From contig SVLB01000008.1 in the NCBI GenBank assembly GCA_015068135.1, positions 1-64,000 on the forward strand: a DNA stretch of 64,000 nt, written 5' to 3'. The first letter of the stretch is position 1. The number at the start of each line of letters is the position of its first letter. The notes under the pieces are model-generated. The model was not told where the DNA came from. It was given only the letters and a program-made list of their open reading frames with translations, and made no database searches. Shown in pieces: positions 16,208 through 58,869 of the stretch. This stretch comes from Oscillospiraceae bacterium (GTDB taxonomy: Bacteria; Bacillota; Clostridia; Oscillospirales; Oscillospiraceae). A program made the position numbers and the translations under genes.

Positions 16208-19200
16208 TCAGCCGCTGATCAGGGAGAGCTCGCCGTCGGCATTGACGATCTGCAGTGCCGTATTCACCGGCAGGAAGCAGTCTTCGTCATTGGGATCTGT
16301 AATGGTCGTAAATGCACCGATCACATCCATATCCACACCGATGGAGGAGGTATCCTCCAAGCCGTCGGCAGACACAGTGATCCGGGCATTGGCGCACAGC
16401 TCGATCTCCGTCAAAGCAACCGTACCGCCCACAGTAACAGAGACATTCTTGGACTGAACGTCGATCTTGTCCTCTACCGTGGTATTGGCGATAGAGAATT
16501 TGACTGTACCGCTGTTGGCACCCAGACGGATATCGCCGCCCTGGATGACCGCGCCGTCAATGGTGATCTCAGCCTTGGCAGAAGCTGCATTGGCAAAAGC
16601 GGAGATGTTGCCGCCCGTACCGCCCGTAGTGCCGTTCTTCAGAGTGCCGCCGGTCATGGTCAGCTTACCGAATACCGCCAGATTGCCGCCACTGGACTTG
16701 GCATAGCCGTTTTCAATGACAGTGTTGCCGCTGATAATCAGGTTGCCGCTGCCACCGATGCGGATATTGCCGCCCTCGGAATCCGTACTGCCGCCGCTGA
16801 TCTTACCGGACTGGAACTGAACCGAGCCGCCGTCCAGGTTCACAGAACCGCCGGAGCCCTTGGCATGACCATTCAGGATCTGGGTACCACTCAGCTCGAA
16901 GACATTGACGGAGCTGTTCGCCACATTCACGTTGGCACCGCTGCCGGTTCTGGCAGTGCCTTCAGACACCGTGCCGCCGTAGAGATAGAGCTTACCGGAG
17001 GAGAGCATGATGTTACCGCCGGAGGTCGCATTGCCGCCGGTGACCGTGCCGCCGTACATATACACCTCAGAATTATTGGTAATGTTGATATTACCGCCGC
17101 TGGAGGTCGTGTATCCGTCATGGATGTTGCCTGCATAGATATTCAAGGTGGCAACACCGGCCGCGGCATCATTCTTATTACCCATATAGAAGATAGCGCC
17201 ATTGCAAATCGTACCCTTGGAGGTAAAGTTACCGCCGTAGATGTTGATCACAGGGTTATTGCCGTTCTCGTTGTAAGCATAGGCTACACCGCCGTAGACC
17301 TTTCCGCCGCTTGCAGAGCTGTTGTCGTAATGGGTCTCGATGCCGCCCTTGAAGTTGCCGTCAGCATCCTTCTGGCAATCGGTGATATTCAGGGTGCCTT
17401 TGAGCACACGGAATACGCGGACCGACTCAGAGGTGGTAATGGTATGACCGTTGAGGCAGATACTCAGGGTATTGCCCTTTTCCACATTCACATTGGCCGT
17501 CAGATGCACATCCTCAGTCAGAACGATCCGTCCGGAAGCGGGCAGCTTGTCAGTCTCGCCCCAGGGGGTCCATCTGACAGTATCGCAGGAGGTGTGCCCG
17601 CCCAGATTCTCCGCATTACCGCCGCAGAGGCAGTGCTCATGGAGGAACTTGGGAGTCAGGTACAGGTCGCCGTTTTTGTTCTCGACCTTATAGTTTTCCG
17701 TATCGGCAGGGACGAAGCATGCCTCATCGTTGGCATCGGTGATGGTGGCAAACGCCAGGGTATCATCGACCACAGATACGATGATGCTGGAATCGTCTTC
17801 CAGGCCTTCCTCGTGGATGCCGATTCCCTGACCGGCAGCCAGAACCACATTCAGATCGGTGACCTTGCCGCCAACATACAGGCTGTTGTTGCCGTCCTGG
17901 ACATTCACAGTGCCGTCAATATTGGTACCCAGCAGAGTCAGCTTAGTGGTACCGCTGTTGGAGCCCATGCGGATATTGCCCTCAATGGTGCCACCGGAAA
18001 TCACAATTTCGGGGTTTACATCTGCCAGGTTGGCAAAGGTCAGGATGTTATTGCCTGCGCCGGTGCCCACGCAGTTGCCCAGGAAGCCGCCGGAAATCTC
18101 CATCTTACCCATGCAGGTGATGTTACCGCCCTGTCCCTGCTCGATGATTGCATCCTTAGAGATAGAGGCATGGCCGTTCTTGCCCACACGCAGGTTGCCG
18201 CCTTCCACGGCCTTGTTTCCGGTAAGCTTGCCGCCTTCCATGTTGAAATAACCCACATCCGCATTCACTGCACCGCCGTTACCGGAGGCGGTACAGCCGG
18301 TAATAACACCGCCGTACATATTCAGAACAGAGTCGTTACCGATATACAGACCGGCACCACTGCTGTAGCTGGAAGCACCCTGAATCGTACCATCGTAAAT
18401 ATTCATGGTTGCCACGCCGGCCTTGTCATTGGAGGAATTACCCAAGTAGCCGATACCGCCGTTGGTGACCTTACCGGTATGCTCCAGGGTACCGCCGTAG
18501 ATGTTCAGAACGGGGTTTCTGCCGTCGGAGTTGTACATGTAGAACAGACCGCCATAGGTAGCAACGTTCTTACCGTTGGCATCCACCGGGCAGGTGAGGC
18601 TGCCGGAGATCTTGCCCTGGTACTCACCGTCCACCTTGTGGTCGCAGATGTTCAGGGTTCCGTGAATGTTGAAGAAGCGATCCTCGCTGGTGATGGTATG
18701 ACCGTTGAGGCAGATGGTAAGCTCATCGCCGGCATTGATCTCGATTCTGCCGTCGGCATAAACCGCATCGGCACTCAGATAGTAATAGCCGGGAAGCTGG
18801 ATCTGGGAAACACCGTCCCATTCGTACCAGGTCACGTCCTCTGTCACATGCTCGCAGGTATGCTCGCCCTCGGGCATCACATTGATGCGGCTCATCACGT
18901 AGACATAGTTGGTTTTGCCGTCAGCACCCTTCAGGCAGTGAATAAAGTCACCCAGCTGCAGCTTGGTGCGCTCACCCTGGTTATTCTCAAACTTATTGGT
19001 GGTAACGTTAAATACGTTCGGATCATCGGAGATGGTCCAGGTGGAAATGCTTCCGTCCTTATTGGTGGTCACCTGGTTGCCTTCGATCTTGGTAACGGTG
19101 GCATAGCTGATGCCGATGCCGCCCTTGCATTCCTTTGTAGACTTGGCGTGGAGGGCATGGATCGCAAAGCCCTCGTCGTCAAAGTCGATGCCTACGACCT

Positions 19201-21529
19201 TGGCAATTTCCAGGTCAATGGCATTGGCAACCTCCTTGTCCTTGGTCTTGACGGTAACTTCCTGGCCGTCATGAGCCATGCGGAAGGTATACACGCCGTC
19301 GGCATCGGGGACACGGGTGGTTTCGCCCAGGGTCGCATCGTACTTGCGGTCCAGGTTGTAGTATATACCGTAGTCCACATAGCGTTCCATCACGAACGCA
19401 TAGGAAACCTGCTTATCGCCATTTGCCAGGCAGTGGACAAGGTCACCCACCTGCAGTTCAGTCTCCTCGCCTCTGTTCTTGATGAAGTTGGTACTCACAT
19501 TGTAGATCTTGCAGTTCCAGGCCTTGGTCTCATAATAGGTCTTGGTAACCACACCGTTTTCGATCTTCTCCGTGGTAAAACCGTACTTGGAAACATCGGT
19601 GACATAGGCCCAGCTGGAGGTACCGCCGCCCTTGGTGACAACACAGTTGGAGGGGTGGATGGCGCGGTAAACGATACCGTCATAAACCTCCATAGCCAGG
19701 GTCTTTGCCGCCTGGGAATCGATATCGGTGGCGATCTTCTGGCTCTTGGTCTTTACCGTAACAGACTCGCCGTTGTGTGCCATCTCAAAGACATAGTAGC
19801 CCTCGGCATCGGGCACACGGGTGGTCAGCTTGGTAGTAGAATTATATTTTCTGGAGTAGTTCCAATAAAGCGGCAGATTTTCATAGCGGTTGACGATGAA
19901 GATCACACTGACCTCACCGTTCAGGTTCTGCAGAGTATGTACCCGGTCACCCACACGGACCTTGTCTACCTGGCCCACCAGTGCCGCATTGGAGGACACG
20001 TTATAGGTCTCGCAGTCCTCTGCAATGGTTCCCTGAAGCAGATCGCCGGTGCTGTCCTTCAAGACGGTAATGCTGTTGCCATCCAGGGCAGTCACGTCAT
20101 ACCAGCTGGCCCAGGTACCGCCAATGGTTACCTGATCGGGGGTATAGAACTTTTCGATCACGTCACCGTTCAGCTTCAGACCGAAGCACTTGGCCGCACG
20201 GGCATCGATCTTCTGCACGATGTCAGGATCCTGGGTCTTCACGATCTTTTGCTCACCCAGTACCGCTACCTTGATCCGGTACCAGCCGTCATAGTCAGGC
20301 GTGCGGGTGGTGAGCTTGGTCTTGGAGTCGTACTTCCGCTCCACATTCCAGTAGATCTCGGATTCCACAGGATTGCTGACCACGAACACAACACAAACCT
20401 GTCCACGGGAGTCACGCAAGCAGTGGCACTGCTGACCGACCTTCAGCTCCACAGGCTGACCAAACCACTCTCCGGTGCCGCTGACATCGTAGACCTTATA
20501 CTCTCTTGCCAGCCTGCCGGTATAGACAGTGCCCTTACCGCTGCCGGAAACACGGCGGAAGCTCACCTCGTTGCCGTCCACAGCAGTCAGGTGATACCAG
20601 GAGGCCGCACTGCCGCCACCGGTATAGGTACCGGCATGGTAAACGGCAGAGATATTGCCATCCTCGTCCACATCTGCACCGAAGCAGCGGGCAGCCTGGG
20701 AATCTATCTGGCTGGCGATCTCAATATCCCGGACCTTCAGGGTGATCTCCTCACCGTTCAAAGCCGCCTTGTATACAAAATTACCGGTAACATCACGTTC
20801 ACGGGTGGTCCGCTTGATGGCAGCATCATACTTGCGGTCGGAAATGAAGTACACATCGCCGGGAACCTTGTAGGGCTTCACGAACACATGGGTGATCTTG
20901 CCGTCTGCATCCTTAACCGCTATGACCTCGGCGTCGATACCGACAGTGCCGGGCAGACCCACCATCAGGCCTTCACCGCCCACATCCCAGATCTGGGTGT
21001 CCTCCTCCAGGATGAACTGACCGTTAAAGCCGTCCAGACCCACAGCGGAGTTAAACTTGATCACGTTACCCTCAACCGCTGTGACATAGTAGCCGTTGGC
21101 AGCCAGGCCGCCGGTAAAGGTCTCTACACGCACAGCATCCACAACCACGCCATCGCTATTAAACACAAGACCCATGATCTCCATCATATCGATCTTGTTG
21201 GCAACGGTGCGGTCTGCTACAGGCAGACGTACCTGCTCACCGTCAACGGCGAACTGGATGTAGATAAAGCCATCCTCACTGTCCACGGGGCGGACCATCA
21301 GGCTGCTTCCCCGATAGGTGGCACCGTCCACGTTCCAGTAGATCTTGCCGTCCAGGCCCTCGGTATGCGCGGGAGCCTCGGTGGTTTCGGTGGGCTGGGT
21401 CGCCTGGGTCTGCTTATCGGAATCACCGCCAAAGACAGTGAGCATAAGCGCAGCCGCAACAGCCAAAACCACAACCAAACAAGCCAAAATGACCCATTTG
21501 GTATTCTTTTTCTGACTCTGCTTCTTCAT
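16208..21529 (-). CDS. Giant membrane-anchored repeat protein: five ~155-aa repeats plus beta-helix modules (1773 aa)
   Basis: A 1773-aa protein with a lysine-rich N terminus and one transmembrane segment (about 12-33), so it is probably anchored with the rest outside. Residues about 61-860 hold five copies of a ~155-aa unit. Copies share IYWN..RKYD...TTR, a VKT/IDSQAAK helix, a GG..SWY..TA strand and GDxVHCL before a hydrophobic end. From about 870 the protein changes to beta-helix repeats (NIYGGT, GGNI) in two modules. One opens with CEHVTEDVTWYEW and one with CLCGGNAENLGGHTSC, each followed by LCLNGHTI. These modules match those of the 1667-aa protein. No sortase or S-layer motif is seen. 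GGAAGGAG precedes the ATG. Function unknown; an adhesin or glycan-binding surface protein is the likeliest reading. Confidence 0.82.
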   Translation of the reverse strand: MKKQSQKKNTKWVILACLVVVLAVAAALMLTVFGGDSDKQTQATQPTETTEAPAHTEGLDGKIYWNVDGATYRGSSLMVRPVDSEDGFIYIQFAVDGEQVRLPVADRTVANKIDMMEIMGLVFNSDGVVVDAVRVETFTGGLAANGYYVTAVEGNVIKFNSAVGLDGFNGQFILEEDTQIWDVGGEGLMVGLPGTVGIDAEVIAVKDADGKITHVFVKPYKVPGDVYFISDRKYDAAIKRTTRERDVTGNFVYKAALNGEEITLKVRDIEIASQIDSQAARCFGADVDEDGNISAVYHAGTYTGGGSAASWYHLTAVDGNEVSFRRVSGSGKGTVYTGRLAREYKVYDVSGTGEWFGQPVELKVGQQCHCLRDSRGQVCVVFVVSNPVESEIYWNVERKYDSKTKLTTRTPDYDGWYRIKVAVLGEQKIVKTQDPDIVQKIDARAAKCFGLKLNGDVIEKFYTPDQVTIGGTWASWYDVTALDGNSITVLKDSTGDLLQGTIAEDCETYNVSSNAALVGQVDKVRVGDRVHTLQNLNGEVSVIFIVNRYENLPLYWNYSRKYNSTTKLTTRVPDAEGYYVFEMAHNGESVTVKTKSQKIATDIDSQAAKTLAMEVYDGIVYRAIHPSNCVVTKGGGTSSWAYVTDVSKYGFTTEKIENGVVTKTYYETKAWNCKIYNVSTNFIKNRGEETELQVGDLVHCLANGDKQVSYAFVMERYVDYGIYYNLDRKYDATLGETTRVPDADGVYTFRMAHDGQEVTVKTKDKEVANAIDLEIAKVVGIDFDDEGFAIHALHAKSTKECKGGIGISYATVTKIEGNQVTTNKDGSISTWTISDDPNVFNVTTNKFENNQGERTKLQLGDFIHCLKGADGKTNYVYVMSRINVMPEGEHTCEHVTEDVTWYEWDGVSQIQLPGYYYLSADAVYADGRIEINAGDELTICLNGHTITSEDRFFNIHGTLNICDHKVDGEYQGKISGSLTCPVDANGKNVATYGGLFYMYNSDGRNPVLNIYGGTLEHTGKVTNGGIGYLGNSSNDKAGVATMNIYDGTIQGASSYSSGAGLYIGNDSVLNMYGGVITGCTASGNGGAVNADVGYFNMEGGKLTGNKAVEGGNLRVGKNGHASISKDAIIEQGQGGNITCMGKMEISGGFLGNCVGTGAGNNILTFANLADVNPEIVISGGTIEGNIRMGSNSGTTKLTLLGTNIDGTVNVQDGNNSLYVGGKVTDLNVVLAAGQGIGIHEEGLEDDSSIIVSVVDDTLAFATITDANDEACFVPADTENYKVENKNGDLYLTPKFLHEHCLCGGNAENLGGHTSCDTVRWTPWGETDKLPASGRIVLTEDVHLTANVNVEKGNTLSICLNGHTITTSESVRVFRVLKGTLNITDCQKDADGNFKGGIETHYDNSSASGGKVYGGVAYAYNENGNNPVINIYGGNFTSKGTICNGAIFYMGNKNDAAAGVATLNIYAGNIHDGYTTSSGGNINITNNSEVYMYGGTVTGGNATSGGNIMLSSGKLYLYGGTVSEGTARTGSGANVNVANSSVNVFELSGTQILNGHAKGSGGSVNLDGGSVQFQSGKISGGSTDSEGGNIRIGGSGNLIISGNTVIENGYAKSSGGNLAVFGKLTMTGGTLKNGTTGGTGGNISAFANAASAKAEITIDGAVIQGGDIRLGANSGTVKFSIANTTVEDKIDVQSKNVSVTVGGTVALTEIELCANARITVSADGLEDTSSIGVDMDVIGAFTTITDPNDEDCFLPVNTALQIVNADGELSLISG

Positions 21530-37021: not shown

Positions 37022-37177
37022 AGCCTCCCTCTGACGAGGGAGGTGGCCCGAAGGGCCGGAGGGAGAGAAAACCTTACGTTTTCAAAAGAACGAAAATGAT
37101 TGTATTCTCTACACTTTCTCTCCCTCAGGCAATTGCCTAAAATCGGCAATTGCCAGCTCCCTCATCAGAGGGAGCCG
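37022..37177. repeat. CCTCCCTCTGACGAGGGAGG stem-loop repeat (copy C1)
   Basis: The unit has CCTCCCTCTGACGAGGGAGG at one end and CTCCCTCATCAGAGGGAG at the other. In between are GGCCCGAAGGGCC, GGAGGGAGAGAAA with its partner TTTCTCTCCCTC, and GGCAATTGCC hairpins. It fills the relA-dtd gap. Copies C2 (48420) and C3 (58750) share the frame with different inner hairpins. Confidence 0.8.
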
Positions 37178-44298: not shown

Positions 44299-45666
44299 TT
44301 ATCTTTCTGTGCCCTTCAGATCCTGAAGCATCTGCAAAAACATCCGGCCGTATTGCTCCCCGGTACCTCGGAACATCCGGGAGCATAGCGACTCATAGCT
44401 GCCGTAATCATAAGCCTGTCGGCAGGGAACGTAAAAATAGTGTCCGTTGGCATAGCCGCAGGTCAGGGTCATGGAATACGGTGACAGATTCTCCACACCC
44501 AGGGCATTGCGATGGAACAGCTCATTGGGGGCCGTGACCATTGCCAGTTCTTCCCCCAGGGAAATGACATTCAGCTCCATATCGTAGTATTCCGGCTGCC
44601 GCATATGGATCAGAATGAAGGCCGCCTTCCGATAGCTTTCAATGCCGTAGGGTTCACCGGCCCGCTTGCAGGCCTCCATATCCTTGGTGGTATCGTATAC
44701 CGCCATCACCTCTCTGGCCGCATCGGCAAGATGGTCCAGGGAGTGATCGATCATCCCCCGGAACACCGTCTGATGGGTCTTCAGGGTGGTATCCTCCGCC
44801 GTCTTCATATATTTTTCCAGACAGCGCACCCCATAGTAGGCCAGCTTCGCACCATGGACCCGGTGGTCCACGGTATAATTTTCCCGTGCCAGACGGCTCT
44901 TGGGATTGATGTTGCCGCAGGCACCCTGAAGGAAATGGACATGGCAATCCAGCTGTGCCCCCAAAACCTCCCGGAAAACGCCGGGATAGTCTGCCGACAG
45001 GTTCTTTTTATTGGCACCGCCGGTAAGCTGAGGATGGGCCTGGAAGTTTGCGATCACCACATCCTTGCCGCCTTCTCTGTGAAACTGCACCAGCCGCAGT
45101 GTGGGATCCGCAGGATCCACATGCTCCGTGGTCTCGTCATACACCGGTGTGCCGAAGCCATCACCGAAATACTTTACCGTACCGTCGGGCAAGGTGTGCT
45201 GATAGTGCTTCACAAAGTTCAGCCCCGGAGCCAGGATCTTGCCGTAGCGCATGGTCGCGGGCTTTCTGTCCTCCCAGGCGGCCACACCTGCGGCAACCAG
45301 CTTCTCGATCAGCCACGGCTCATACCGCTGGATAGACGGCTCCTTCCCGTTGATAAGATCCGGTGCAGAGTGGGTATGGGTGCAGGTGACCATGATCCGG
45401 TCCTGACCCAGCCCCAGCTTTTCGCTGAGCTGTTCCTTCACCGCCTTCACCACGCCATTGTAGGCCCGCACCAGGTCCATAGTCACAAACAGGATGGAAT
45501 TGCCCTGGGCATCGGTAATGGCTGTGGCAATGCCGTGGATGTCTTCAAAGATATTTTCAAAGAATCGGGTGGAGCTGTCAAAGCTGCAGCCGCCCAGGGG
45601 CACCGGCTCCTCCGGGGTAATAACCATATCCCCAAATCCAACCAAAAGCTTATTTCCCATACTCAT
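44299..45666 (-). CDS. Neutral-ceramidase superfamily hydrolase, paralogue 1
   Basis: A 455-aa protein of the neutral/alkaline non-lysosomal ceramidase superfamily. It shows the zinc-site segment TCTHTHSAPD near residue 96, FQAHPQLTGG near 210 and LQGACGNINP near 250. In characterised ceramidases the last segment carries the nucleophilic serine (AGNLSPN); here that position is Asn. There is no signal peptide, unlike secreted ceramidases, so a cytoplasmic substrate is likely. The ATG overlaps the stop of paralogue 2 (ATGA), and all three paralogues form one unit. Function beyond the superfamily is unknown. Confidence 0.75.
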   Translation of the reverse strand: MSMGNKLLVGFGDMVITPEEPVPLGGCSFDSSTRFFENIFEDIHGIATAITDAQGNSILFVTMDLVRAYNGVVKAVKEQLSEKLGLGQDRIMVTCTHTHSAPDLINGKEPSIQRYEPWLIEKLVAAGVAAWEDRKPATMRYGKILAPGLNFVKHYQHTLPDGTVKYFGDGFGTPVYDETTEHVDPADPTLRLVQFHREGGKDVVIANFQAHPQLTGGANKKNLSADYPGVFREVLGAQLDCHVHFLQGACGNINPKSRLARENYTVDHRVHGAKLAYYGVRCLEKYMKTAEDTTLKTHQTVFRGMIDHSLDHLADAAREVMAVYDTTKDMEACKRAGEPYGIESYRKAAFILIHMRQPEYYDMELNVISLGEELAMVTAPNELFHRNALGVENLSPYSMTLTCGYANGHYFYVPCRQAYDYGSYESLCSRMFRGTGEQYGRMFLQMLQDLKGTER

Positions 45667-47012
45667 TGTCCTTTCAGTTCTGCCAGCATTTTCAGGAATT
45701 GCTCCGAGATCTCCTCGCCGGTGCCGGGGGCAAACCGGGAAACATGGGACTCGTAGCAGCTGTAATCGTAGCCGTACTGGGAGGGGATGTAGAACCAGTG
45801 CCCGTTTGCATAGCCGCAGGTAAAGGTCATATCAAAGGGAGAATGCTCCTCGGTGTACACAGAATTGGTATCAAACAGCTCATTGGGAGCCGTCACAAAG
45901 GCCAAATGGTCACCCACCGCAATGGCATTCAGGTCCAGGCTGATGGTCTCCGGGCTGGCTGCCTTGGCAGACACGGAGCCGGCATGGTACACACTGGCAA
46001 AGCCGTGCTCTTTGCAAAGGGCCGCCGTACCCTCCCGGTCACCGGTGGTGGCGAAATGCCGCCATACCATTGCAGCCTCCTGCCGCTTGTGGTCCATGGA
46101 GTGATTGACCTTACCGGCAAAATCCACATGGCGCGTGCGGATCAAGCCCGCAGGAACGGTTTTCATGTGTTCTTCCAGGCATTTTACCGCAAAATAGGCA
46201 AGTCTTGCGCCGAATACCCGGTGATCCAGGGAATACTGTTCTCCGGGGATCCGGCTCTTTGGGTTAATATTGCCGGCAGCACCCTGCAGGAAATGGACAT
46301 GGCAATCCATCTGCGCTCCCAAGATCTCACGGAAAGGCGCCGGGAAGTCCGCGGACAGATTCTTGATCTTACTGCCGCCGGTCAGCTGAGGATGGGCTCG
46401 CCAGTTAGCCAAAACCACATCCTTGCCCCCCTCCCGGGCAAACCGCACCAAATGGAGGGTCGGATCTGCCTCGGTGGTATGCCGGGTGGTCTCGTCCATC
46501 ACATGACGTCCGAAATTATCGCCAAAGAATTTCTTCTCTCCGTTTTCCACATTGTAATAGTGCTTTACAAAGTTCAGACCCGTTGCCTCAATATCACCAA
46601 CAGAAACGGTGGCTGGCTTCCGGTCCTCCAAAGCCGCCTGGGCGCACTCTACAAGCCAGGCCTGGACCTTGGGAATATAGCGCTGGATCGCCTCTTCTTC
46701 CGTATTGGTCATATCCGGGCCGGAGTGGGTATGGGTACAGGTGATCATAACAGACTCCACGGGCAGGCCCGTGGCCTGACTGACCATTTTCCGCGCCTCG
46801 GGAACCACCTCAAAATAGGCGCGGGTGGTATCCAGGGTCATAAATACCACTGTTTTGCCGGTCTCGTCGGTCATAGCCGTACCAATGGCATGGATATCCT
46901 CCAGTACCTTTTCGTGCTTTCTCCAGGACGAGGCACCGTAACCGCCTAAAGGCATGGGCTCATCCGGGGTGATGATAATATCCGCAAATCCAACAGAAAA
47001 TGTATTTTCCAT
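45663..47012 (-). CDS. Neutral-ceramidase superfamily hydrolase, paralogue 2
   Basis: A 449-aa paralogue of the two neighbouring genes, with DIIITPDEPMPLGGYGASSW at the start, TCTHTHSGPDMTN near residue 96, WRAHPQLTGGSK near 210 and LQGAAGNINPKSR near 250. The serine of the ceramidase active-site loop is again Asn. The segment LNFVKHYYNVENGEKKFFGD is nearly identical in paralogues 2 and 3. ATG 47012 is 6 nt from AAAGGA; the upstream ATG in the track is part of that site. No signal peptide is seen. It lies 22 nt after paralogue 3. Confidence 0.75.
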   Translation of the reverse strand: MENTFSVGFADIIITPDEPMPLGGYGASSWRKHEKVLEDIHAIGTAMTDETGKTVVFMTLDTTRAYFEVVPEARKMVSQATGLPVESVMITCTHTHSGPDMTNTEEEAIQRYIPKVQAWLVECAQAALEDRKPATVSVGDIEATGLNFVKHYYNVENGEKKFFGDNFGRHVMDETTRHTTEADPTLHLVRFAREGGKDVVLANWRAHPQLTGGSKIKNLSADFPAPFREILGAQMDCHVHFLQGAAGNINPKSRIPGEQYSLDHRVFGARLAYFAVKCLEEHMKTVPAGLIRTRHVDFAGKVNHSMDHKRQEAAMVWRHFATTGDREGTAALCKEHGFASVYHAGSVSAKAASPETISLDLNAIAVGDHLAFVTAPNELFDTNSVYTEEHSPFDMTFTCGYANGHWFYIPSQYGYDYSCYESHVSRFAPGTGEEISEQFLKMLAELKGQ

Positions 47013-47034
47013 AATAAATCCTTTCATAACAATG

Positions 47035-48378
47035 TCACTGTTTGAACTCCTTCAGCATCTGAAGGTAGGTTTCTACTACAAGCTCTGCAGTACCCGGGGC
47101 AAACCAGGCAACATCGGATTCATAGCAGGTATATTCAAAACCGTACAGGCTGGGCAGATATCCCCGATAGGCATTGCAATAGCCCATGGTCAAGGTCATA
47201 GCAAAGGGAGAATCCGCTTCTGTTGCGGTAGAAACGGTATCGAACATCTCCGTTCCGGTGACGATGGCTACATCCGGGCCAATGGCAATGGCATTGATCT
47301 CCATCTCCATGGATGCGGGTCTGCCGGCTTTGGCTACCACCGCATTGGCATGGTAAGGACTGCGGATGCCCCAGGGCTTTCCCAATTCTACCGCCGCCTG
47401 CAGATCGTAGGTTTCGTGCCACAGCTTCTGCACCTTCTTTGCCTCCTGCAGCAAATGATCAGAACGGTGATCCAGAGGCGCCGTAAGGAATTGCTGACGG
47501 TGCTTCAACAAACCCGGCTGCGCCTGGGTCATATGCTTTTCCAGGCACTCCACTGCCTTTGCTGCCAGGTTCATGCCATAGCTGTCACAGGTGGTGTACT
47601 GCCGTTCCTTTTTAAGACGTGTAGAGCTGTTCAGGTTTCCGGCACAGCCCTGGAAAAACATAGCCCTGCAGGGGCGCATAGCCTCCAGCGCTTTTCGGTA
47701 AGAGCCAATATAGTCAGCAGAAAGGTCATATTTCTTTGCACCGCCGGTAAAGTGGGGATGGGCACGCCAATTGACCAAGACGATCTCAGGCTTTTCTGCC
47801 CTGACGATCTGCACAACATGCATATTCGGGTTGGCAGCAGTGGTGTGATCCGTGGTGTCATCGTACACGGGGGTTCCAAAATTGTCGCCAAAGAATTTCT
47901 TCTCCCCATTTTCCACGTTATAGTAATGCTTGACAAAGTTCATATTGGGGACAGCCACTGTTCCGTAGTAAACCGTGGCTGCAGACCTGTCTTCCAGGGC
48001 CTGGGTGGCAGCAGCGACCAGCCGCTCCTGCAAAAGGGTATGATAGCGCAGGATAGACGGCTCTCCCCGGTTCCAAATATCCGGTGCGGAATGGCTGTGA
48101 CTGGCGCAGATCATCACGCACTCCTCGGCGATGCCCAGTGTATTATGGATCTGCTTACGAACCGCGCCAAGAAACGGTTCGTCGATCACCAATGCATCCA
48201 ATTCCAGCAACATCACCGTGTTTTCCTGCGCATCTGTTACCGCCAGACAACTGGCCCGGAGTCTGTCCCGGATGGATTGGAAGAAGCGAAAGGACGTGTT
48301 GCCATACCCACCCAGAGGAACGGATTCCTCCGGTGTAATATCGGCACACCCGTAGCCAATTCGAAAACAATCATTCAT
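47035..48378 (-). CDS. Neutral-ceramidase superfamily hydrolase, paralogue 3
   Basis: A 447-aa first gene of the three-paralogue unit. It begins RIGYGCADITPEESVPLGGY, and its zinc segment reads CASHSHSAPD, keeping both histidines. HPHFTGGAKK and FFQGCAGNLNSSTR follow; the last loop again has Asn where ceramidases carry the catalytic Ser, and its next residues differ from the other two copies. ATG 48378 is 10 nt from AAGGAG. It is separated from the upstream ABC transporter genes by a terminator and repeats, so it probably has its own promoter, not clearly seen. Confidence 0.75.
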   Translation of the reverse strand: MNDCFRIGYGCADITPEESVPLGGYGNTSFRFFQSIRDRLRASCLAVTDAQENTVMLLELDALVIDEPFLGAVRKQIHNTLGIAEECVMICASHSHSAPDIWNRGEPSILRYHTLLQERLVAAATQALEDRSAATVYYGTVAVPNMNFVKHYYNVENGEKKFFGDNFGTPVYDDTTDHTTAANPNMHVVQIVRAEKPEIVLVNWRAHPHFTGGAKKYDLSADYIGSYRKALEAMRPCRAMFFQGCAGNLNSSTRLKKERQYTTCDSYGMNLAAKAVECLEKHMTQAQPGLLKHRQQFLTAPLDHRSDHLLQEAKKVQKLWHETYDLQAAVELGKPWGIRSPYHANAVVAKAGRPASMEMEINAIAIGPDVAIVTGTEMFDTVSTATEADSPFAMTLTMGYCNAYRGYLPSLYGFEYTCYESDVAWFAPGTAELVVETYLQMLKEFKQ

Positions 48379-48419: not shown

Positions 48420-48623
48420 GTAGGGTAAGGGCTTGCGCGCCTTTGCCTCCCTCTGACGAGGGAGGTGGCCCGAAGGGCCGGAGGGAGAGAATATGCGTAA
48501 ATCACGGAAATGCCAAAAATGTGGTATTCCCAAGTTTTCTCTCCCTCAGTCAATTGCCTCGAATCGGCAATTGCCAGCTCCCTCATCAGAGGGAGCCGTG
48601 TTTACGGTGGGACCCCACCCTAC
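48420..48623. repeat. Stem-loop repeat (copy C2) bounded by GTAGGG and CCCTAC
   Basis: Inside GTAGGG (48420) and CCCTAC (48623) lies the family C frame: CCTCCCTCTGACGAGGGAGG, GGCCCGAAGGGCCGGAGGGA, TTTTCTCTCCCTCAGTCAAT and CTCCCTCATCAGAGGGAG. It is one of several repeats filling the 526-bp gap between the hydrolase and transporter units. Confidence 0.75.
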
Positions 48624-48904: not shown

Positions 48905-49912
48905 TTAGCCCTTAACAGAGCCGACCATTACGCCGCCCTTGAAGTACTTCTGAACAATGCCGTAGGCAAGCAGAACGGGGGCAGTGGAAACGACGATCAA
49001 AGAGTAACGGATCTGCTCCAGACCCTCGGTACCGGACTGCTGGGAGGAGGTACCGGTATTGCCGGTTTGTGCAGCTCCGGGATCATTACCGGAGGAGATA
49101 GCCGTGGCAATGAGCAGCAGGTTACGCAGGAACAGCTGCAGGGGGTGCAGGTCGTACCGGGTGGGCAGGTAGATCATTGCGGTGAAGTACTCGTTCCAGC
49201 AGCCAACGATGGCGTACAGGGTAACCACGGAGATGGTTGCCTTGGCCAGAGGAATACCGATCTTCCACAGCTGCTGGAAATCGTTGGCGCCGTCGATCGA
49301 AGCAGCGTCAAACAGCTCGCCGGGGATGGAGCTGCGGAAGGAGGTGCGGAGAATGAACACATTGGATGCGCCCAAAATGCCGGAGAACAGAATTGCCCAA
49401 ATGTTGTCGTACAGACCCAGGCTCTTTTTCACCAGGTACAGCGGGATCATACCGGCGTTGACCAGCATGGTGACCACGATGATCCGGGTGTAAGCCTTAC
49501 GGCCCTGGAAGTTCATCTTGGACAGAGGATAGGCGCAGGTGATCTGCATAAACATCTTAATGAGAACACCGAAGAAGGTGTAGAAGATGGTATTGCGGTA
49601 GCCCAGGAGGATATCGTCCATCTTAAACACGATAGAATAGCCGTCAAAGTTAAAGCCTACCGGCCACAGAACCACCTTACCGGCAACGATCGCACTGTTG
49701 GAGGAGAAGGAGGAAGAAATAACATAGATAACAGGGTAGGCAACGATGATCAGCAGAATGATCAGCACGATGGTGGTGAACAGCTCCAGCATACGGTCGC
49801 CGAAGGTATCGCGAATCTTTCCGTTCTTTTTGCGCTTGACGACAGGTGCAGGGGCAGCGGGGGCGGTCTGCATTCCTTCAGGAGTCAGAACTGTGGTTTC
49901 CTTATTTTCCAT
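48905..49912 (-). CDS. ABC importer permease, YtcP/LplC type
   Basis: A 335-aa inner-membrane permease with six hydrophobic segments. It has the LplC/YtcP-type opening (TIVLIILLIIVAYPVIYVISSSFS) and the EAA loop as GELFDAASIDGANDFQQLWKIGIPL. Transporters of this class import oligosaccharides and share an ATPase encoded elsewhere; none is in this window. A low-complexity insert, GAAQTGNTGTSSQQSGTEG, lies in the last periplasmic/cytoplasmic loop near residue 285 and is unusual. It lies 18 nt after the other permease gene. Confidence 0.92.
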   Translation of the reverse strand: MENKETTVLTPEGMQTAPAAPAPVVKRKKNGKIRDTFGDRMLELFTTIVLIILLIIVAYPVIYVISSSFSSNSAIVAGKVVLWPVGFNFDGYSIVFKMDDILLGYRNTIFYTFFGVLIKMFMQITCAYPLSKMNFQGRKAYTRIIVVTMLVNAGMIPLYLVKKSLGLYDNIWAILFSGILGASNVFILRTSFRSSIPGELFDAASIDGANDFQQLWKIGIPLAKATISVVTLYAIVGCWNEYFTAMIYLPTRYDLHPLQLFLRNLLLIATAISSGNDPGAAQTGNTGTSSQQSGTEGLEQIRYSLIVVSTAPVLLAYGIVQKYFKGGVMVGSVKG

Positions 49913-49930
49913 AATTCACTGCCTCCTTCC

Positions 49931-50899
49931 TTAGAACAGACCGGCTTCGCCGTCGGACAACCAGCCGGCGATCAGGTTCACCAAAATAACCATACCGGAG
50001 TTAATGACAGAGTTCATCAGACCGATGGCAGTACCGTAGGACTGACGACCTGCAGAGATACCTCTTTTGTAAACGTATGTAGAAATGACTTCGGATACGT
50101 CAATGTTCATGCTGTGCTGCATCAGGTAGACCTTCTCGTAGCCCACGGACATGATGGAGCCAAAACGCATGATCAGCATAATGGACACAGTGGGCAAAAT
50201 AGCCGGAAGGTCCACGCTCAGGACCCGTCTGAAGCGGCTTGCGCCGTCGATCTTTGCCGCCTCATGAAGCTCCTGGGAGACACCGGACAGAGCGGCCACG
50301 TAAACAATGGTGCTCCAGCCCATGTTCTGCCAAACACCGGACCACACGAAAATGTGACGGAAGGAGCTCTTCAGGTAGAACAGGTCAGGGGGAGAATTAT
50401 AGTTGCCGAAGAGTCTGTAAATGGCAGCCAGGACACCGTACTGGGTGTGGAACAGCTGCTGCAGAAGACCGACCATAACGACGGTGGAAATGAAGTGGGG
50501 AATGTAGGAAACGTTCTGAGTCAGCTTCTTGAGGACCTTCTTCTGGTTGACGTGGATAAACAGAGCCAAAAGAACAGGAATGGGGAAGCCGGCAAGAATA
50601 GAATACAGGGAAATGGAAACGGTGTTAACAACGATATTCGACCATTCCCAGTCGGAGAAGAAATCGATATAATGCTTCAGGCCGATCCAGGCAGAATCCA
50701 TAATGCCGTCAGCAGGGCTGTAGTCACGGAACGCGATCTGCAGACCGTACAGAGGCAGGGCCTCAAAGAGTACATAGTAAAGCATGGGGAGCACCATCAG
50801 CAGATGGAGTCTCCAGCTTTTCTTAAAGTTGATCCACGTCTTTTGACCCTTTGTCAGGCGGTTAGCAGACACAGGCAACGCAGTTGAAGAAGCAGACAT
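49931..50899 (-). CDS. ABC importer permease, LplB/YteP type
   Basis: A 322-aa permease partner of the downstream gene. GLQIAFRDYSPADGIMDSAW near residue 55, six membrane segments and the EAA loop SQELHEAAKIDGASRFRRVL are typical of LplB/YteP. ATG 50899 is 9 nt from AAAGGG; the earlier ATG in the track abuts that site. A 204-nt gap with hairpins separates it from the binding-protein gene, which would allow the binding protein to be made in excess. Confidence 0.92.
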   Translation of the reverse strand: MSASSTALPVSANRLTKGQKTWINFKKSWRLHLLMVLPMLYYVLFEALPLYGLQIAFRDYSPADGIMDSAWIGLKHYIDFFSDWEWSNIVVNTVSISLYSILAGFPIPVLLALFIHVNQKKVLKKLTQNVSYIPHFISTVVMVGLLQQLFHTQYGVLAAIYRLFGNYNSPPDLFYLKSSFRHIFVWSGVWQNMGWSTIVYVAALSGVSQELHEAAKIDGASRFRRVLSVDLPAILPTVSIMLIMRFGSIMSVGYEKVYLMQHSMNIDVSEVISTYVYKRGISAGRQSYGTAIGLMNSVINSGMVILVNLIAGWLSDGEAGLF

Positions 50900-50971
50900 G
50901 CACTTCATCCCTTTCTAATTGGTATAAAACACTCCCAAAAGGAGCAAGCAGAGGCCTACCCAAGCCTCCCC

Positions 50972-51090
50972 TTGCCTGAATATCGGACAGCTCCCGGTAC
51001 TCAGGCAAAGGGAAACTGTGGGGAAAACTCTCCGGTTCACCGGAGAGCGGCTTTGGGCTATCCCGGGAGTCGGGGTTGCCCCCGACTCCC
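50972..51090 (-). promoter_or_regulatory. Three hairpins between the binding-protein and permease genes
   Basis: Three stems follow one another on the minus strand: GGGAGTCGGG/CCCGACTCCC (51065-51090), CTCTCCGGT/ACCGGAGAG (51028-51047) and TTGCCTGA/TCAGGCAA (50972-51008). None has a strong T run. They probably protect the upstream mRNA or attenuate transcription into the permease genes. Confidence 0.6.
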
Positions 51091-51103
51091 AAGGAATGCG
51101 TTT

Positions 51104-52837
51104 TTAGTTAACCAGGTCAGAGAACCAGCGACCGGCGACGGTCTCCTCGTAAATGTACTGAGAGTACTCAGTCCACTTGCTCAGACCCAGGGTCTCCAGC
51201 TGAGCCAGGTACTTGTCCCAGTCAGCATCGGAGTTGATGTCCATAGCGCCGGTAATGAAGTCGGAACGAGCCTTGGAAATGTAGGACTTGCAGTCGTCGC
51301 GCTCGTAGGGAACTTCGTCAATGAGCTCCTGAGACCAGATCAGCAGGGGGCAGATCTGCTCTTCGGGAGGATTGAAGTTGTCTCTCTGATAGTAGTAGCT
51401 GTCCAGCATATCGTTAAACAGCTTATACTTGTGCAGGTTGACCTCGGTCTCTTCCTCAGGAACAGACTGGTTGCCTTCGCCTTCGGCGTTCAGCAGGATG
51501 GTAGCGTCAACGTTTCTCCAGTTGTTGTTACCCATGGCGCCCCAGGTATCCTGGTACAGACGGATCTCAGCAGCGCGGTGCTCGCCAATAACGGACACAG
51601 AGCCCTCGGGAGCCCAATCCCAGTCCTTACCCTCTTCGCCGTAGCGCTGGATGATGGAGGACTCGCGGCTACTCATAACCATCAGCAGGTTCCAGACAGC
51701 ATCCATGTTACCACGCTCCACAGCGGACTTGGTAACGAAGGTGCAACGGGTGTTCTGGTCCTCGTTGATGATGGCATTGCCCCACAGAGGCAGAGCCTCG
51801 TAGGACAGCAGGCCCTCGTGAGCCTGGGTAAAGACCAGGGTGATGTGGCCGACGACCACACCGGCCAGCTGGACACCGCCCTCATCGGGGCAGACCATCT
51901 GGGTCAGGTCCTTGGAGTTAGCGGTCAGGGTCAGGGGGCTCATCAGGCCCTCGGAATACAGCTTGCGGATGTACTTCAGAGCCTCACGGTACTGATCGGT
52001 GGTGTGAGGCAGATACAGCTTGCCGTTTTCGTCAACATTGAAGTAAGCGGCAGTATCGCAGTAGATGAACATGTTGATCAGCCAGGACATGGTATCACCG
52101 GACAGGTTGCCGTTGGTACCGACCAGGGGCATCTCATCGGGCAGACCGTTGCCATTGGGGTCCTGCTCCTTGAAAGCCTTCAGTACGTTGTACAAAGACT
52201 CGGGGGAGTTGGGCATCTCCAAAGACAGAGCGTCCAGCCACTCACGGTTGATCCAAACCTGAGAGTCCATGATATCGATCAAAGACTCCTGGATCTCGGG
52301 GAAGGCGTAGATTCTGCCGGAGCCGTCGTTGGACAGCATACGGCGCCAGTTGTTATCCTGAGCCTCCTGGGGCAGAGCCTCGAAGCGCTCCCACCAGGGT
52401 GCAGCCTTGCCCTCTTTGTCGTCAAAGTAGGGACGCAGGTCGACCAGAACGCCGTCACGGCCGTAACGCTCGTAGACAGACTCGCCCAGGTTCATAGAGT
52501 ACAGCAGGTCGGGCAGGTCAATGTTACCGGCGACCATGGTGGACATCTGGGACTTGTAGTCGGTTGCAGAAGCTGCAAAGAACTGGAACTCCAGGTTGTA
52601 ACCGGTCTGCTCCTCCAGCCACTTGGTGTACACATTGTCGTAGTAATCGGTAACCAGAGCGCTCTTGGGCAGACCGATGGTGATGGTTACATCACTGGGG
52701 TCCTTGCTGGGGGTAGTCGCGCCGCCGGTAGCCTCAGTGGCGGCAGGCTTGTCAGTCTTCTTGTCGTCTCCGCCGCAGGCTGCGAACATGGAAGCGATCA
52801 TAGCCAGGCAAAGCAACAGTGCGAAAAGCTTTTTCAT
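51104..52837 (-). CDS. Extracellular solute-binding lipoprotein of the sugar ABC importer
   Basis: A 577-aa family 1-type binding protein, as large as LplA-type proteins that work with LplB/LplC permeases. A lipoprotein signal, FALLLCLAMIASMFAAC with cysteine near residue 20, anchors it outside the membrane, followed by a Gly/Thr/Lys linker. A D-rich segment DPNGNGLPDEMPLVG near residue 225 is the usual calcium-like loop of this family. AGGAGG precedes ATG 52837; the longer track start was rejected. Sugar specificity cannot be read, but the next unit encodes three ceramidase-like hydrolases. Confidence 0.93.
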   Translation of the reverse strand: MKKLFALLLCLAMIASMFAACGGDDKKTDKPAATEATGGATTPSKDPSDVTITIGLPKSALVTDYYDNVYTKWLEEQTGYNLEFQFFAASATDYKSQMSTMVAGNIDLPDLLYSMNLGESVYERYGRDGVLVDLRPYFDDKEGKAAPWWERFEALPQEAQDNNWRRMLSNDGSGRIYAFPEIQESLIDIMDSQVWINREWLDALSLEMPNSPESLYNVLKAFKEQDPNGNGLPDEMPLVGTNGNLSGDTMSWLINMFIYCDTAAYFNVDENGKLYLPHTTDQYREALKYIRKLYSEGLMSPLTLTANSKDLTQMVCPDEGGVQLAGVVVGHITLVFTQAHEGLLSYEALPLWGNAIINEDQNTRCTFVTKSAVERGNMDAVWNLLMVMSSRESSIIQRYGEEGKDWDWAPEGSVSVIGEHRAAEIRLYQDTWGAMGNNNWRNVDATILLNAEGEGNQSVPEEETEVNLHKYKLFNDMLDSYYYQRDNFNPPEEQICPLLIWSQELIDEVPYERDDCKSYISKARSDFITGAMDINSDADWDKYLAQLETLGLSKWTEYSQYIYEETVAGRWFSDLVN

Positions 52838-52968
52838 TTTTTTCCTCCTCAATAATTTTCCTATGTTTTGAGGTGATAGCACCTCTTACATACACATCCG
52901 AAGGTCTTCTCCGGGGGCAACTTCCGTCAAAAGGGTGCAGTGACCCCAGGTACTTTTGTTGCGAGTCT

Positions 52969-58749: not shown

Positions 58750-58869
58750 AGGCCCCCTCTGACGAGGGGGCTGTCAGCCGAACAGGCTGACTGGGGGAGA
58801 GAAATTCTATCCCATTTTCTCTCCCTCCGTCTGCCCTTCGGGCAGCCACCTCCCTCATCAGAGGGAGGC
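58750..58869. repeat. CCTCCCTCTGACGAGGGAGG-type stem-loop repeat (copy C3)
   Basis: CCCCCTCTGACGAGGGGG at one end and CCTCCCTCATCAGAGGGAGG at the other, with TCAGCCGAACAGGCTGA, GGGGGAGAGAAA/TTTCTCTCCC and GCCCTTCGGGC inside. It sits between gene tails 1 and 2. Confidence 0.75.

Follow-up and report, generated by a model that had tools for sequence, protein, structure and literature searches.

What do ceramidase-like proteins do in a bacterium that encodes three of them side by side, next to an oligosaccharide-type importer, and what does it mean that they carry an asparagine at the place of a ceramidase serine? This question is raised by a stretch of 64,000 nucleotides from an Oscillospiraceae bacterium (assembly GCA_015068135.1, contig SVLB01000008.1, positions 1 to 64,000), here called the window, in which three adjacent minus-strand genes, named A, B and C, encode such proteins; CER stands below for any neutral-ceramidase-like gene or protein of the family under study. 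We see an even chance that the three proteins are zinc deacylases of a single domain that work in the cytoplasm, cleaving amides or esters of sugars or oligosaccharides taken up by the adjacent AlgQ-type ATP-binding cassette (ABC) importer; the neutral ceramidase superfamily would then have a branch for the use of glycans. The fold (in a predicted model), the conservation of the active site, the copy number, and the co-location with the importer and carbohydrate genes are what the analysis shows; the reaction and the substrate are inferred from them. The family is barely described; certain bacteria of the herbivore gut carry approximately 30-60 copies of it, and this expansion, rather than the Ser-to-Asn change, is the surprise.

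The three genes encode proteins of the neutral ceramidase superfamily

All three genes are complete open reading frames, with pairwise identities of 43-53% (Table 1); the frame stays open 5' of the chosen starts of A (to 48411) and B (to 47027). B and C overlap by four nucleotides (ATGA), and A and B are separated by 22 nucleotides with a ribosome binding site (RBS) in between. An earlier note, made from the sequence alone, had described three translationally linked, tandem ceramidase-superfamily paralogues that keep the zinc histidines and lack signal peptides. A heuristic prediction detected no signal peptide in any of the three proteins.

The Pfam family PF04734 is matched by A with 39.7 bits, above the gathering threshold of 32.1, whereas C (20.7) and B (14.6) remain below it. 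A profile of the paralogue family matches the neutral ceramidases 2zws (E 5.8e-18) and 4wgk (E 2.1e-14). The AlphaFold model of B (20-sequence alignment; pLDDT 94, pTM 0.92) was compared to the PDB with Foldseek, which returned neutral ceramidases only (E 1e-25 to 5e-24, template modelling (TM) scores of 0.70-0.73, 14-15% identity). In the comparison with the Pseudomonas enzyme, which the earlier note had proposed, B matched 2zws (E 1e-25, TM 0.70); when normalised by target length, TM scores are approximately 0.5. As judged from these profiles and the predicted model, A, B and C belong to the neutral/alkaline ceramidase superfamily (PF04734 fold).

In the profile alignment, His97, His99, His204, Glu411, Tyr448 and Tyr460 of the Pseudomonas aeruginosa neutral ceramidase (PaCD) correspond to His94, His96, His207, Glu378, Tyr408 and Tyr420 of B, and Arg160 of PaCD corresponds to Lys150, a position that most relatives fill with Arg. 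We take these PaCD residues to be its zinc ligands and catalytic residues. The zinc ligands His, His, Glu and Tyr and the second His of the HxH motif (TCTHTHSAPD in C, TCTHTHSGPD in B, CASHSHSAPD in A) are kept in all three proteins and in nearly all of 174 relatives: in PaCD numbering, His97 and His99 are present in 172 of 172, Glu411 and Tyr448 in 171 of 171, Tyr460 in 169 of 171 and His204 in 148 of 172, and the Arg160 column holds Arg in 138 and Lys in 16. The catalytic Lys/Arg is followed by a family-specific loop, HY..DG..FGDNFG, predicted to be a hairpin in the model of B.

At the His204 column, Pro is found in 21 of 172 relatives. At one locus (L013:8204-11229) two CER relatives have this ligand replaced (NVPCPSQ), their loop reads GDLSP or GDLAP, and genes for an APH-type kinase and a NagA-like protein adjoin. 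From its sequence, this pair could be a second subfamily with an altered metal site.

The serine position is variable

The loop that reads GDVSP in ceramidases is CGNINP in C, AGNINP in B and AGNLNS in A, and Ser250 of PaCD (Ser274 of the precursor) falls exactly on Asn250 of B. The earlier note had reported these loops correctly and had regarded the serine as the nucleophile, a role that does not hold. In human neutral ceramidase, Ser354 lies at the base of the pocket and positions Arg257, and the critical residues are His196, Arg257, Tyr579 and Tyr591 (PMC6952831); catalysis is zinc-dependent (PMC5915598). The column itself is variable: among the 174 relatives it holds Asn in 103, Ser in 19, Val in 15, Thr in 11 and Ala in 7, besides others, and in a wider Bacillota sample Ser in 14, Asn in 9, Arg in 2, Asp in 1 and Val in 1. 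The tree requires at least 25 changes among Asn, Ser and other residues at this position. Since the column varies freely while the zinc site is kept, and given the role of Ser354 in the structure, we regard it as a tunable pocket position and not as the nucleophile. Asn is its commonest residue, so that the triplet is not special in this respect.

It is therefore highly improbable that the substitution has left A, B and C catalytically altered or dead. Such a reading could draw on the exact position of the substitution and on earlier work, as cited in PMC6952831, that had named this serine an active-site residue of an amidase motif; against it stand the crystal structure, with the serine behind the arginine, and the contrast between invariant zinc ligands and a freely varying column. 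The loss of a nucleophile by the Ser-to-Asn change was rejected on the structural literature and the residue census.

For the deacylase reading, we propose that zinc, bound by His94, His207, Glu378 and Tyr408 (B numbering), would activate water, and that His96, Lys150 and Tyr420 would serve as general base and as oxyanion or leaving-group residues. Asn250, in place of the Arg-positioning serine, would tune the pocket.

The link between importer and CER genes is conserved

As the earlier note had stated, a lipoprotein/two-permease importer lies beside the triplet: a solute-binding protein (SBP) and two permeases (48905-52882) are encoded upstream of A. The SBP matches AlgQ1/AlgQ2 (E 5e-22) as well as other family-1 sugar-binding proteins; a dedicated ATPase was not found in the importer locus. 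In CER-rich genomes, five other full-length SBP homologues (E < 1e-78) were detected (G084:C38, G084:C20, G000:C5, G113:C53 and G000:C39), and all five lie within approximately 9 kb of a CER. Searches of six CER-poor congeners yielded weak or partial matches, none of that quality. At locus L098, the order SBP-permease-permease-terminator-CER is repeated, with a CER that is a lipoprotein. Thus, the link between importer and CER is real and conserved.

The importer and the triplet are separated by an intrinsic terminator, which has an equivalent at the same place in L098, and by a MITE-like element (miniature inverted-repeat transposable element). This element is one of three copies in the window (37024-37175, 48446-48596 and 58752-58868), with inverted repeats CTCCCTCATCAGAGGGAG. 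A single operon of importer and triplet was rejected on account of the strong terminator and the insert; co-transcription is doubtful, although the linkage is conserved. The translational linkage claimed earlier therefore applies to A, B and C and does not extend to the importer.

The earlier note had also suggested a cytoplasmic pathway for an imported amide- or ester-linked glycoconjugate. The cytoplasmic location and the conserved link to an oligosaccharide-type importer agree with it, and from these and the neighbouring genes we infer hydrolysis, deacylation and a sugar substrate: A, B and C would act in the cytoplasm on imported material, and CERs that are lipoproteins or fused to other domains would act outside the cell.

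Table 1. Features of the CER triplet and the adjacent importer (positions in the window).
Feature	Position	Strand	Remarks
Oligosaccharide-type solute-binding lipoprotein (SBP)	51104-52882	minus	PDB relatives AlgQ1/AlgQ2, other family-1 SBPs
ABC importer permease 1 (BPD_transp_1)	49931-50908	minus	
ABC importer permease 2 (BPD_transp_1)	48905-49912	minus	
Intrinsic terminator between permease 2 and gene A	48863-48830	minus	15-bp stem, U tract, z -5.8
MITE-like element between importer and gene A	48447-48595		23-nt inverted repeats
Gene A, neutral-ceramidase-like zinc hydrolase	47035-48378	minus	447 aa, RBS-preceded ATG at 48378; PF04734 39.7 bits
GNLN loop of A	47629-47640	minus	
Gene B, neutral-ceramidase-like zinc hydrolase	45663-47012	minus	449 aa, RBS-preceded ATG at 47012
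His94 codon of B	46731-46733	minus	
GNIN loop of B	46263-46274	minus	
Gene C, neutral-ceramidase-like zinc hydrolase	44299-45666	minus	455 aa
GNIN loop of C	44905-44916	minus	

Carbohydrate genes are among the neighbours of CER genes

CER neighbours include Gfo/Idh/MocA oxidoreductases, glycoside hydrolases (GH2, GH20, GH28, GH39, GH43/BNR), FGGY kinases, NagA-like and NagB-like proteins, APH-type kinases and many AraC-type regulators. Counted among the 25 commonest families, 107 operonic neighbours comprise six Gfo/Idh/MocA, three GH20, three GH28, two GH39 and two FGGY proteins; 109 distant control genes comprise two Gfo/Idh/MocA proteins, and no GH family occurs among them more than once. 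Locus L045, with a CER, a NagA-like gene directly after it, NagB-like, LarA, SBP, permease and GH20-like genes, looks like a hexosamine-type operon.

Lipid genes were not seen near CERs, and a sphingolipid pathway was rejected on this ground and on the wrong domain architecture. It is highly improbable that the three proteins are genuine ceramidases or amidases of sphingolipids. They share the fold and the zinc site with these enzymes; however, they lack the C-terminal immunoglobulin (Ig)-like domain and the signal peptide, have the additional HY..DG..FGDNFG loop and lie in a sugar-gene context. L152, the full-length ceramidase-like protein detected in the same phylum (203 bits), retains GDVSP and is placed by the tree at the end of a very long branch. 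PF04734 matches in gut genomes should therefore not be taken as ceramide metabolism.

The neighbours bear on two further alternatives. It is rather improbable that the CERs split an amide bond, as ceramidases do, in substrates of the peptide or amino-acid type from cell-wall or peptide material, such as muropeptides or N-acyl amino acids. M20 peptidases, an M81 (MlrC) peptidase, alanine racemase, NagA/NagB-like proteins and LarA at some loci would fit muramic acid and D-lactate, but GH28, GH39, GH20 and Gfo/Idh/MocA proteins are more frequent as operonic neighbours, and the SBP in the window belongs to the sugar type. The deacylase reading also has a narrower version, in which the CERs are zinc O-acyl (acetyl, feruloyl or lactone) esterases on plant polysaccharide fragments rather than amidases; this is likewise unlikely: GH28, GH39 and GH43/BNR neighbours, the origin of the named relatives from herbivore hindgut and the fusion of CER domains to large surface repeat proteins speak for it. 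The characterised members of the superfamily, on the other hand, cut amides, and hexosamine-type operons carry CERs too.

Several points also weigh against the broader proposal of deacylases for imported sugars. The terminator splits the importer from the triplet, so that co-transcription is not required. The enrichment of carbohydrate genes consists of small counts from the 25 commonest families. A NagA-like deacetylase is already present in one CER operon, which would make a plain N-acetylglucosamine-6-phosphate deacetylase role redundant. Finally, the genes near CERs point in several directions (hexosamine, pectin/xylan, glycyl-radical enzymes, peptidases), and no single substrate stands out. 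Among open-access papers, no relevant report linking ceramidase-like proteins to the use of glycans was found.

Two neighbours were recorded in addition. In two genomes, a short (690-710 aa) glycyl-radical enzyme and its activase are clustered with a CER and an SBP (L040:1359-3431, L099:11415-13547). They are only remotely related to hydroxyproline dehydratase, choline lyase and others, and the L040 enzyme, which was the one scored, falls below every equivalog cut-off, so that they give no substrate clue. A 663-aa protein directly adjoins a CER on the same strand at seven of seven loci (L143:11308-13299 and six others); it has a weak GH5 signal and no relative in the PDB.

The family is expanded in some herbivore-gut bacteria

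The source genome (2.4 Mb, 83% complete) contains 29 CER genes on many contigs (30 matches, one gene being split in two), of which the triplet accounts for three; another adjoins dnaA/dnaN (L014; recognised by eye). Among 24 congeners, 18 have no CER and the maximum is five, and a Pfam search of the genus found PF04734 in 23 of 101 genomes. Expanded relatives are G113 with approximately 56 genes and G285 with approximately 62 (both hand counts from listings), G084 with 16 matches, and other genera with 19-47 matches. In a Bacillota sample, PF04734 was matched in 30 of 399 genomes with few copies each (at most three candidates scored per genome).

One array contains 18 successive CER genes in 28 kb (G285:C19:137061-165019, L185/L186). 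Nearly all encode predicted lipoproteins, the catalytic residues are intact in all 18, and pairwise identity is 38-71%. In a tree (FastTree only), B and C are sisters and A is on a separate branch; copies from the source genome and from G084 are intermixed, suggesting that part of the expansion is older than their split or that copies were exchanged. In the source genome, some CERs resemble the triplet in being cytoplasmic and others are lipoproteins; eight are large proteins that combine the domain with long repeats. Membrane-anchored proteins of 1,600-2,500 aa near CERs carry glycine-rich 'MYGGT' repeats that, by inspection, are typical of beta-helices. The window itself encodes a 1,773-aa membrane-anchored repeat protein (16208-21529, minus strand) of the same family as the giants that directly adjoin CERs elsewhere.

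The triplet is thus a small part of a lineage-specific expansion, whose copies have come to differ in location (cytoplasm, lipoprotein, fusion to beta-helix-like proteins of the surface) and presumably also in substrate. Tentatively, and with somewhat less confidence than for the triplet, we propose a new class of carbohydrate-active enzymes, neutral-ceramidase-fold zinc glycan deacylases, with tens of copies per genome and matched importers in several herbivore-gut Oscillospirales-type lineages. Multiplication on such a scale is usual for sulfatases or SusC/D proteins. To our knowledge, the neutral ceramidase fold has so far been known only from lipid amidases; here it has apparently been turned to sugar metabolism, making up approximately 1-3% of the genes in some herbivore-gut bacteria. 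Should acylated glycans of plant or amino-sugar type prove to be the substrates, the family would be a candidate for an as yet unassigned step of fibre or mucin digestion.

Comparison with known systems

B is like the P. aeruginosa neutral ceramidase (2zws, 2zxc) in its predicted fold and in the aligned His97/His204/Glu411/Tyr448, His99 and Tyr460. It differs by an identity of only about 15%, the missing C-terminal Ig-like domain, the replacements of Ser250 by Asn and of Arg160 by Lys, the extra hairpin, and in not being secreted. Human ASAH2 (4wgk) likewise shares the fold and the catalytic set; it is, however, a membrane-anchored lipid amidase with an Ig-like domain and a hydrophobic pocket, in which Ser354 positions Arg257. 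From neutral ceramidases as a class (EC 3.5.1.23), A, B and C are set apart by the absence of the GDVSP/GNLSP serine motif, the Ig-like domain and secretion. The importer resembles the AlgQ1/AlgQ2 oligosaccharide systems in its homologous SBP and two permeases, while the locus in the window is without a dedicated ATPase. The carbohydrate de-N-/O-acylases of the NagA (CE9) type have an unrelated fold, the amidohydrolase TIM barrel, but resemble the CERs in the predicted type of reaction, and in L045 a NagA-like gene directly follows the CER.

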